Positions 2,552 through 39,259 of a stretch of 64,000 nucleotides of DNA are shown piece after piece (the stretch's first letter is position 1; every line of letters starts with the position of its first letter). This DNA is from Dimargaris cristalligena (lineage: Eukaryota; Kickxellomycota; Dimargaritomycetes; Dimargaritales; Dimargaritaceae), in contig JANBQC010000074.1 of the NCBI GenBank assembly GCA_027576995.1, positions 1 to 64,000 on the forward strand, written 5' to 3'. A model generated the notes under the pieces. That model saw only the letters and a program-made list of their open reading frames with translations. It was not told where the DNA came from and ran no database searches. A program made the position numbers and the translations under genes.

Positions 2552-5053
<2,502 letters not shown>

Positions 5054-6834
5054 ATCCGCCCTAATCGAATTAATGACCATTTCGGCAAATCTCTCTATAC
5101 CCATCCCCTATTCCCCCCTCCTCCTCCTTTCCCATTTATTTTTCATGGCAACGGCATGGAGCTAGGCATAAAGGTACATACACTTCTCCTACCCCCCCCC
5201 TCAGTCTCGTCGGCATGACAATGTTATTTTGTTAGTCGAGCACCTGCCTGGCTTCCTATTACCGCTAAACACGAAGCGGCTGGTGTTAGTCTTGGGCAAT
5301 GCATGGTCCAACATGAATACACGATGGGTTACCGCATTCCCAATCCCCCCTCACCCTTTCTAAGATTTTTATATATACATATTTATAAATATATGTATTT
5401 TTGAGACATCAATGTCGCCTCTAATTTGGCTTAATATCAACTGGCCAAATACATACCGCTTCACTCACTTTAACTATAACCAGCTGCTTCACACCAGGGT
5501 GATGGAATTTTGGTCATGCGCTTCATCTGCCACTACAGCTGTGTCGGTAATTTTAGACCTACACTCTAAAAGCCAGTCGAATCTTGGTGAAATGCTAGAA
5601 TCTGAAACATTAGTTTTCTCTCTCATTCTAACGGTCCCTCTCGCAATTACTACCATCAGAATCAGGAGATCCGGCCCTGAAATGCTCGCCCAGCCTTTCC
5701 ATTACCGACGAAATTGGCTAGTCGCCCAGGGACATCCAAGCACCTTTCAAGAGCTGGACTGAAACTACCCCCCCCCCTTGAAATCCGTACTGATACACCA
5801 TACCATTGCTTAAAAAGTCGGCTCCGTACAGCGTAAAAAGTTGAAACTGTAAATGGCCTGACGGGGACATAGATTGTCCATCCATTTCGCCCACGCCATC
5901 ATAACGGGCCTAGCCACATTAACCGTAATAGGACTCTAACACAGTGTGGGTTGCTGTCCATCACTTAGCGGACTTCAACATCGACTCCCACTTTTCAATT
6001 GACCCGTTCGGTTTATTAATCAACCGACCGTTGGCAATGGTACTACTAATCGGTTGGCCCTCGAATGGTGCCTACTGACTTGTAAAAACCATAATCAACC
6101 ACTGAATTCAATTTCTATGAAATGATAATTCTTGCATCATTTATAATTTGTGTATAGTTCGATGCGCTAATTGTCGACTCTACCCAGAGTACCCTATAAA
6201 GCATAACAGTACCACCTCTCCAGTGGCGGATTCATTTGTTTCAGATTATATACACAATGAACAACATAAACAGTAATAGACGTATATTATTTTTGGGAGA
6301 AGCCGGGGAGTCCCTTCCGCATCCCTATTGTCCAGTCGTATGGACATGAGCCCCTGGCCCAACCACAAGTCATTAATGACGGTGGGCTTATTAATAACTC
6401 CCTGTGGCTCATTCTGCAAATAAACACTGACCGATAATTTCGGATCATCCCAATGTACGATGGAGAGGCCCGGTCCGGTTCATAATACGCCAAAACGCTT
6501 GATTTGGTTACATTATTAGATAATAAATCTATGATGTTTATAAGTGGCTAGGATGTCACATCAAGTCAGTGTCGTTTACATTAAGCCCTATTAAGATATA
6601 CATCGACAGTCGCAGAAAGCGTAGCCGATTAGAACGTGACCCCTCGCAGGTCGAAAAGGCATGTTTATTTGGGCACCCCGTTCATATTTGGCAGGAATAT
6701 GCTTAGCCATCGAAAAGACTAGGCAGTATACCACGAATTTTTCAATGCTTGATCCCGTGCATTCAGCCATATAATAGGTTAAAAGATCTTTTATACGCCA
6801 TGTTTTCCTTTAGTTAGATTAAACGAATCTGTTC

Positions 6835-36950: not shown

Positions 36951-39259
36951 TTGGTACTACTCAGTCCTATGAGTTCATCAACAGACGAGAACCAGGCCCT
37001 AGAGTTGTTAGCTCCCTTAGATACGAAGCAACAGCAGGACCATGAGGTCCCAGCGGGCGGACCGGAAGACCATGTGGACCCACCGCGCAAACCTACGATG
37101 GGCCCCATGCCCCCCGGGAAGAAAAAGCCATTACAACTGAGTGACCTTTCAGCTGGCACTCTTCATAGATTGGCAAAGGTAAAGAATAAACCGCTGACCC
37201 AGATTGAAATTTTACGTGGTTTGGTGTATCAAAAGGTCCATGACATGCTCACCCCGGAGATAATCGATAAAATACCTACCAGTGTACTGGATATTGTAAC
37301 CGGCAAGAAAACGATTGCCCAGTCGATTTGTGGCGATTCTTCCGACGATGAATTAGGGGACGAAAATGATTTAGTTGGGACAGCCGATCAGTCTAGTACC
37401 CAACTGGTCACTCTAAGTAAGTATATTTAAATATCTCTCTCGGCATGCTCGAAAAACACCAGGAACGTTGTGTAATAGTGCCGGTCGCTTTGTCCGCATT
37501 ATTGCATATTCCAGGACCAATTTATCTAACCACAGCTTCTCGAATATGCTTATTCATTCCATTAATTTATGACTCCCCTTATTTTTTAGAGCGGGATCGC
37601 CGGCCTTTCTTTACGGTGAACATGGTCCCTACGCTCCTACGTGCCGTGGACAAGGCGGGTTTCACGGCCATGACCGAACTTCAAGAGAAAGTTATCCCAC
37701 TGGCTATTATTGGGGCCGATGTTATGGTGGTGGCCAAGCCGGACTCGGGCCAAATCGCCGCCTTCCTAATCCCCGTTATCGAACACTTGATCACCCGGCC
37801 CTTCCCACCCCAAGACGGGATCGGGGCCCTGATTATAACACCAACGAAGCAATCGGCGGAACAAATCCACCGGGTCCTGGGCCAATTCCTGGTTAATCAA
37901 CAAAACCTATCGTCCGGATTGCTTATCGAGCGAGGCGTTTGGCAAACCGAAGTCGATGCCCTGCGGAAAGGCACCACCATTTTAGTGACCACCCCGGATC
38001 GGCTCGTGAAACACCTGGAGGTTACAGCAGGAGTAGTTATCCAAAACGCGCGGATGTTGGTTATTAACGAGGCGGACCAAATCCTGAGCTCGGGGGGTGG
38101 GGAGAGTCTCCGCCACATTATCAGTGCGATATCCCAAGTAAGCCCATCCGACCAACCCCGCCAATCCCTACTCTTTACCACCACCAAAACCACGGAAGTC
38201 GATGCTTTGGCCCCAACGGTGCTGCGCCGCCATTTTCGAACCGTGGGCATGCAGGATCCGGTGGCCGAGCCGAAAGAGACCATCCGGAACCACGGGTACG
38301 TGTTGGTCCGCTCGGCTGACCGGTTGATTCTCCTCCACAATATCCTGCAACGTTGCCCGAACCAGAAGGCCGTGGTGTTTGTCGCCTCCTCCGAAATGGC
38401 CACTCTGCTCCATTATTTACTCCCCCGTCTGGATCTACCCCAATCGGTTATCCTTCTCAACGACCAGCTGGGCCCCAGTGCGCGTCAGACTGCTTTGGAG
38501 GAATTCCAAGCCCCGACCCCACAGGGCATGGTCTTGATTACTACACATACCGCCACCCAAGACCCCCCTTTGACGGCGGCGGATTGGGGTATCCAATTCG
38601 AGGCCCCCAGTGATCCGGTCGCTTTCCCGCGCCATTTGAAGGGGGTGGACCGGTCCCTGCTGTTTCTGCTACCGAACGAACTGAATTTCCTCGAGGCGTT
38701 GAAGAAGCCGGAAGCTCCCCTTAGTGAGATGTGCATCTACCGAACCCCCAAGAAGGGCCAGTCCGGGGACGACCTGGTGTCACTGGCTTCGTTATCACCC
38801 AAAGCGGCTTCTTCTGCGGTCGTTTCGGCTCTACCGGATTTACAACCCCGCATCGACGAGTTGATCAATAGTAGTCGCGTGGCGCTGAACATGGCCCAGA
38901 CGGCCTACCGCACTTTTATCTTGGACTACCATGGCCGCACCAAAAAGAGCATCTTTAATATCACCAATCTGGATACCGTGGGCCTGGCCCAATCTTTGGC
39001 CTTCCAGAAAAAGCCCGCCCCTGCCCCTTCGGCGAAGGCTAAGACTGCTAAGGCCAAGGCACCCCTTAAGACGCCCGCCTCCAAATCGGTCAAAGCCGAC
39101 CAGGCGGCGAATCAGAAGAAGAGGCAAGCGGACAAGGATGTCAAGCATAACAACAATAAGGATGAGACGAATGATTCGAACGATACAGTTGGCAAGAAAA
39201 ATAAGAAACATAATAAGAAGCGGAAGACCGAGGGTGATTCTGCCGATTCAACGAAATAA
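36951..39259 (+). CDS. Has1/DDX18-like DEAD-box protein with degenerate catalytic motifs (pseudo-helicase)
   Basis: Exons 36951-37416 and 37590-39259 join in phase into 711 residues. A 150-residue Ser/Asp-rich N-terminal part precedes a full two-lobed helicase fold that aligns end to end with Has1/DDX18, the nucleolar DEAD-box helicase of 60S assembly. The catalytic motifs are altered. Motif I reads KPDSGQIAAF (about residues 205-214) instead of A-x-TGSGKT. DEAD is NEAD (about 315-318), SAT is TTT, the TDVAARGLD block is TTHTATQDPPL, and HRVGRTAR is RHLKGVDRS. Structural blocks around them are intact (AMTELQEKVIP, VTTPDRLVKHL, AVVFVASSEMATLLHYLL, FLLPNELNFLEALKKPEAPL). ATP hydrolysis is therefore unlikely. 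The Lys-rich tail resembles those of nucleolar proteins. The start could be the Met at 36951 or 36969. Confidence 0.85.

Follow-up and report, generated by a model that had tools for sequence, protein, structure and literature searches.

A Has1-derived gene of Dimargaris cristalligena with an intact frame and selectively lost helicase motifs, a candidate retained pseudohelicase

The stretch of Dimargaris cristalligena DNA that we analyzed (the window, 64,000 nucleotides) contains a gene that most likely arose from this lineage's own Has1 and that has selectively lost the catalytic and RNA-clamp motifs of a DEAD-box helicase with its reading frame left intact. On the evidence of its sequence, a retained, ATPase-dead pseudohelicase is a well supported reading of this gene. 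For the best explanation as a whole, in which this Has1-derived pseudohelicase would serve as an ATP-independent nucleolar protein scaffold or adaptor, we estimate a probability of about 0.5. New here are a second broken Has1-derived protein in the same genome, the origin of both copies within the lineage, the selectivity of the motif loss, and a test against neutral decay.

The window gene consists of two predicted exons and one intron and encodes, once spliced, a product of 705 residues (Table 1). A sequence-only reading of the window had the locus, the intron and the open frame right, but its spliced frame of 711 codons was too long. The splice model is taken from the sequence, and the intron phase, like that of the canonical Has1 described below, was derived by hand. 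When the local 4 kb was resampled 1000 times with a first-order Markov model, no sample had a stop-free run of 612 codons, as found here; the longest was 317. Open runs as long as exon 1 (150 codons) are common in such samples (288 of 1000), which makes exon 1 less certain than exon 2. With a codon usage that is not coding-like (z −1.5), it is the least certain part of the gene model; a second copy of exon 1 was looked for in the genome and none was found. Synonymous codon usage in the helicase core leans weakly toward that of the reference genes (z 3.1), compared with −0.6 to −10.1 in the other five frames, 6.5 for Has1 and 7.3 for the second broken copy (on contig C519), in a test rough enough that one of six reference genes scored −4.4. 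The protein carries a 24-residue insert ahead of its C-terminal extension (CTE), and its Lys-rich tail, judged from sequence, is likely a nuclear or nucleolar targeting tail.

Table 1. Features of the window gene. Coordinates of the former motifs were obtained by codon counting from 37592.
Feature	Position	Strand	Description
Whole gene	36969..39259	+	ATG at 36969, stop codon ending at 39259
Exon 1	36969..37416	+	149-residue N-terminal extension with acidic stretch DSSDDELGDEND; no Pfam domain
Intron	37417..37589	+	Phase 1, GTAAGT..TTTTAG, just 5' of the helicase core
Exon 2	37590..39259	+	RecA1, RecA2, CTE, basic tail, stop codon
Former motif I (Walker A)	37733..37756	+	AKPDSGQI vs AKTGSGKT; catalytic Lys replaced by Gln
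Former motif II	38066..38077	+	NEAD vs DEAD
Former motif III	38177..38185	+	TTT vs SAT (FTTTKTT vs FSATQTT)
Former motif V	38543..38575	+	THTATQDPPLT vs TNVAARGLDIP
Former motif VI	38624..38653	+	FPRHLKGVDR vs YIHRVGRTARAGR, followed by a short deletion
CTE_SPB4 (PF13959) C-terminal extension	38888..39016	+	Above the Pfam cut-off
Lys-rich tail KKNKKHNKKRK	39032..39256	+	Predicted disordered (low pLDDT, most of 481-555)

Despite its altered motifs, the window protein is recognizable as a member of the Has1/DDX18 family. Pfam detects a DEAD domain (5.6e-25) and CTE_SPB4 (3.8e-7) above their cut-offs, and Helicase_C falls just below its own (21.7 bits against 23.5). CTE_SPB4 lies after RecA2, an arrangement expected of Has1/DDX18, and scores 35 and 30.4 bits against a cut-off of 27. 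When we searched PDB sequences with phmmer, the top five matches were full-length Has1/DDX18 proteins (6.7e-62 to 3.8e-55), the sixth was a DDX18 domain, and DDX10 followed at 1.5e-27 (best 60 of 126 matches).

Motifs I, Ia, GG, Ib, II, III, IV, V and VI are all altered in this protein. The changes named in the sequence-only reading are real (Table 1). Some elements do survive: the Q motif (GFTAMTELQ) is intact and motif II keeps EAD. Every signature of an active DEAD-box ATPase or helicase (GKT, DEAD, SAT and HRxGRxxR) is missing, and the ATPase-dead state suggested earlier is indeed what these losses predict.

The loss is selective. In 21 Has1 proteins, 187 columns are invariant, 50 of them in motifs I, Ia, GG, Ib, II, III, V and VI, the catalytic and RNA-clamp set as we chose to define it. 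The window protein retains 17 of these 50 columns compared with 80 of the 137 others (Fisher p 0.005), and active Dbp4 retains 45 and 82, respectively. Outside the motifs, therefore, the window protein resembles Has1 as closely as does a sister helicase that still works.

A canonical Has1 had been named beforehand as the gene to look for in the same genome, and we found it on contig C428 with all of its motifs: AKTGSGKT, PTREL, GG, TPGR, DEAD, SAT, VAARGLDIP and HRVGRTAR. Because a fully canonical Has1 is present, the window gene is a paralogue, as had been proposed, and both the tree and lineage-specific residues agree with this. The two proteins are 35% identical. We compared both degenerate copies with 21 canonical Has1 proteins of fungi. 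The window protein shares residues with the D. cristalligena Has1 alone at 17 columns and with any other alone at no more than four; for the C519 protein the corresponding counts are 13 and no more than five. In the CTE of the window protein, the D, H and R of DYHxR are likewise common to the D. cristalligena Has1 alone. Such sharing with the species' own Has1 only means that both degenerate copies most likely arose in the D. cristalligena lineage.

A tree built without C519 joins the window gene to the D. cristalligena Has1 (support 100/99*), and one built without the window gene does the same for C519 (93/93, unstarred); in these trees the end branches of the degenerate copies stand at the program limit of 10 and are saturated, so that tree distance is meaningless. 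Most likely, the copies derive from the lineage's Has1 after its split from D. xerosporica, Dispira simplex and Tieghemiomyces, which we take to be the other three members of the same order in the Has1 set. Grouping the Has1 proteins of all four as one clade gives p-AU 0.013 with the window gene included and 0.187 with C519, and we put their non-monophyly down to a long-branch effect. The Dimargaritales are placed within Kickxellomycotina. The C428 gene, too, is interrupted in this linker by a phase-1 intron. The window intron lies a few residues ahead of the core, and this common feature favors a DNA-level duplication over a retrocopy. No neighbor genes common to the surroundings of the window gene, C428 (9.5 kb) and C519 (5 kb) were found.

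With both degenerate copies in one tree, they form a clade of their own (100/100*). We do not rely on this grouping because both branches are at the length limit and because the 27 of 144 novel columns at which the two proteins agree are no clear excess over the values with Dbp4 (16/103 and 14/106). The copies may have had one common ancestor or independent origins. The canonical Has1 (3773-5743, plus strand of the extracted C428 locus) is itself rather diverged: its closest relatives among fungi match it at 64-67% identity, and its stem branch in the tree measures 1.15.

The other degenerate Has1 derivative, which was out of sight for the sequence-only reading, has 495 residues and is encoded at C519:17908-19395 (minus strand). 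At the Has1 columns of motifs I, II and III it reads SPANSGKT, DETD and FS---TQ, and at those of motifs V and VI TTLAAQWSYLP (two inserted residues omitted) and SRRLLASTSGSSP. Motifs III, V and VI are broken; GKT of motif I and DE of motif II are retained, and their survival means that this protein may still bind ATP. It keeps 16 of the 50 invariant motif columns and 56 of the 137 others, so its loss shows no significant selectivity (p 0.31). PF13959, a CTE found in a small number of rRNA helicases, has six matches in the genome: the window gene, C519 and four canonical proteins, which we assign to Has1 (C428), Dbp4 (C247), Spb4 (C634) and Dbp7 (C19), the last three names being our own reading of the sequences and not database labels.

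We also surveyed the genome for broken helicases, starting from 39 PF00270 rows and checking 35 places by regular expression; three rows of already listed genes (C169, C643 and C191) and C370 were left out. Within the set of proteins that have a DExD-type motif II or resemble Has1, only the window gene (C74) and C519 lack both motif I and motif VI, although C519 fails the motif I expression through its ANSGKT form and does keep GKT. C14 (10450) and C191 also lack both motifs but are of the DExH type, C231 lacks motif I, and C179 (DECD) lacks motif VI only. Five loci read on the minus strand all have motifs I, II and VI. The motif III expression failed on several proteins that are otherwise intact, and the place where it matched in C74 was off-motif.

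Sequence tests speak against the window gene being a pseudogene in decay. Evolving a 526-codon Has1 core neutrally to 36% identity, by substitutions without indels, produced a mean of 14.9 stops and a minimum of eight, and no run of 60 stayed open; at 80% identity, too, none of 60 was stop-free. The window gene has an open frame and good splice sites, and the stops, frameshifts and intron loss of a processed or decaying pseudogene are not seen in it. Its hydrophobic columns are also conserved in kind. They are still hydrophobic at 131 of 163 positions (0.80), compared with a neutral maximum of 0.75, and among the changed columns at 56 of 88 (0.64), compared with a neutral maximum of 0.60 (100 runs). 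The C519 protein retains 127 of 161 such columns and Dbp4 145 of 163. The earlier argument, that a decaying pseudogene would carry stops and this gene carries none, is supported by neutral runs that never remain open, by hydrophobic retention and by the length of the stop-free run. Indirectly, these three results also speak for a gene that selection may have kept.

The window protein is predicted to keep the helicase fold, which in combination with the missing catalytic motifs defines a pseudohelicase. The model of the exon 2 product has a mean pLDDT of 81.4 and a pTM of 0.55, with the RecA lobes mostly above 90 and a disordered tail; its alignment of 44 proteins, mostly canonical helicases, pulls it toward this fold. 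The C519 model (mean pLDDT 82.4) was also built on mostly canonical helicases, and for this reason the fold evidence is weaker than the sequence tests. The best structural matches of the window model are chains of nucleolar pre-60S particles, and three matches (8esq_D, 8i9p_CE and 8fkp_SW) are Has1/DDX18 according to the PDB sequence search. The RecA1 model superposes on the DEAD domain of DDX18 at 1.5 Å over 211 residues and equally well on the DDX47 domain (1.5 Å over 210). Whole-length fits to Has1 are poor (9–10 Å) because the lobes are placed differently.

The lobes also differ from those of Has1 in charge. RecA1 and RecA2 of the window protein carry net charges of −1 and −3, compared with +6 to +10 and +2 to +6 in eight Has1 proteins and one Dbp4; the C519 protein has +3 and −1. 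Conserved basic columns outside the motifs are kept at two of nine positions in RecA1 and four of nine in RecA2, but Dbp4 likewise retains just four and two of nine, respectively. The window RecA lobes have probably lost general RNA affinity as well, to judge from their net charge. Without basic charge, a Has1-like docking on rRNA appears doubtful, and protein-protein scaffolding or an adaptor function is favored over direct docking on H16.

In the mechanism that we propose, a copy of Has1 would have arisen in the D. cristalligena lineage and been stripped of the motifs that bind and hydrolyze ATP and clamp RNA, with its two RecA lobes and the CTE surviving as a fold. The protein, presumably expressed, would then act without ATP as a nucleolar scaffold or adaptor that binds protein partners, covering the part of the Has1 job that requires presence and not catalysis, and the Lys-rich tail would direct it to the nucleolus. 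A role as scaffold or regulator in 60S assembly is suggested by analogy to yeast Has1, for which we rely on excerpts of the papers cited. Yeast Has1 joins pre-60S particles without ATP binding, and its K92A form fails in 18S production but remains able to support 27SA3 trimming (PMC3763536). Yeast uses at least two Has1 molecules, of which the 18S one needs catalysis and the 25S-bound one does not (PMC6846684, in the part cited). On the pre-60S particle, the ATP pocket of Has1 is described as empty, with H16 docked away from where helicases usually bind RNA (PMC6340896 and PMC10154028, in excerpt). Utp25 provides a precedent for a pseudohelicase in ribosome assembly (PMC9539457, in excerpt).

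Several other explanations have to be weighed against this one. If Has1 had undergone subfunctionalization, the window protein (or C519) would be the "25S" Has1, binding H16 and 5.8S without catalysis, and the canonical Has1 would perform the ATP-dependent 18S job. The yeast roles are separable and reside in two molecules (PMC6846684, in excerpt), pre-60S docking is ATP-independent, and the window protein has kept its CTE and, by prediction, its fold; nevertheless, its RecA lobes lack basic charge and Erb1, the Has1 contact on the pre-60S particle, has a single match in the genome, so that we consider this division unlikely. That one match to the Erb1/BOP1 N-terminal domain is at C150:7279-8049 (plus strand); no duplicate was seen, and there is thus no sign of a second assembly line. 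It is unlikely that Has1 function is split over three genes, with one live helicase and two pseudohelicases that differ in how far their loss has gone, C519 having kept SGKT and DE and the window gene being without GKT and the first D. In such a split the two would carry the ATP-independent scaffold role, for which yeast employs a second molecule of its one Has1. Fast rRNA change in Dimargaris, whose rRNA genes evolve fast according to excerpts of PMC6784888, may have driven a split of this kind. An Rfam RF00002 search for a 5.8S rRNA gene in the assembly, with 39 of 492 candidates scored, found none; rDNA may be missing from the D. cristalligena assembly. A regulator or competitor that binds Has1 or its protein partners and limits or tunes Has1, as a natural dominant-negative, seems rather unlikely. 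In yeast, overexpression of the dead K92A form of Has1 has a dominant-negative effect (PMC3763536, in excerpt) and dead paralogues that regulate active partners are known (PMC5201418, in excerpt), but at 35% identity to the D. cristalligena Has1 any shared interfaces may be gone.

A RecA-fold protein with an unrelated job outside ribosome assembly, in a fungus described as a mycoparasite (PMC6784888, in the part cited), would also fit the lost lobe charge and the missing motifs for ATP and RNA. The N-terminus without a known domain, the insert before the CTE and the extreme divergence point the same way, but the CTE and hydrophobic core are retained and a Lys-rich tail is present, which leaves such neofunctionalization rather unlikely. 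A pseudogene whose frame was kept by chance would explain the lost motifs, the codon use of exon 1 and the failure to find the protein in a database (see below). It is nonetheless very improbable in light of the neutral runs, none of which stayed open at either identity, hydrophobic retention above that of all 100 neutral runs in that test, and a 612-codon run without equal in 1000 samples. Hardly credible is a still-active helicase with unusual motifs: the Q motif and EAD are kept, but a Gln replaces the Walker Lys and motif VI has been lost, and in yeast Has1 K92A alone abolishes ATPase and helicase activity (PMC3763536, in excerpt).

The retained scaffold or adaptor, our preferred reading, can be compared with several known systems. 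The window protein resembles Has1/DDX18 in its two RecA lobes, CTE_SPB4, best sequence match and basic C-terminal tail; it differs in the absent catalytic and RNA-clamp motifs, the nonbasic lobes and the insert before the CTE. With the D. cristalligena Has1 it has the linker intron in common, but its N-terminus is longer. Utp25/Def, a pseudohelicase of the SSU processome, likewise combines a predicted helicase fold with broken motifs and works in ribosome assembly. Unlike the window gene, which is Has1-derived and known so far from the sequence of one species, Utp25 is essential and conserved from yeast to human in the excerpts of PMC9539457. The C519 protein is also Has1-derived, with motifs III, V and VI broken and an intact frame in the same genome, but it keeps SGKT and DE (DETD), has a single open frame with no core intron and is 28% identical to the window protein. 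As in the trypanosome prozyme type (PMC5201418, in excerpt), a dead copy stands beside a live enzyme in one genome; dead copies of that type regulate their active partner, whereas a complex of the dead and live copies would be hypothetical here.

The scaffold role of Has1 without its ATPase has so far been argued from yeast mutants. If our reading is correct, a fungus with dead Has1 copies beside a live one would amount to that mutant experiment performed by nature, and would add a ribosome-assembly pseudohelicase caught at an early visible stage of evolution. The literature, searched by full text, contains no description of a dead Has1 paralogue among the matches listed. Residues 140-640 of the window protein, used as a query against a collection of 5.8 billion proteins (7993 candidates scored), gave 54 matches from which the window protein itself was absent; the highest identity was 30%, and none was named Dimargaris, most rows being nameless. 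It is therefore probably not annotated, or annotated with a very different gene model. The candidates were about 390 to 1230 residues long, so that a gene model that is fused or far shorter would escape, and the search sees relatives with exact 5-residue words, by our estimate from about 50% identity up, from which it does not follow that orthologues are absent. The other two D. cristalligena Has1-like proteins are in the same collection. With C519 as the query, the first match was its own record (P0175 in nr), followed by one at 31%, and no row exceeded 37% (best 120 of 525 matches). P0175 is given for two contigs, of which one exceeds C519 in length, and a second assembly of the species therefore seems to exist. 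This record is labeled "ATP-dependent RNA helicase ddx18," a name that can mask a probably dead enzyme.
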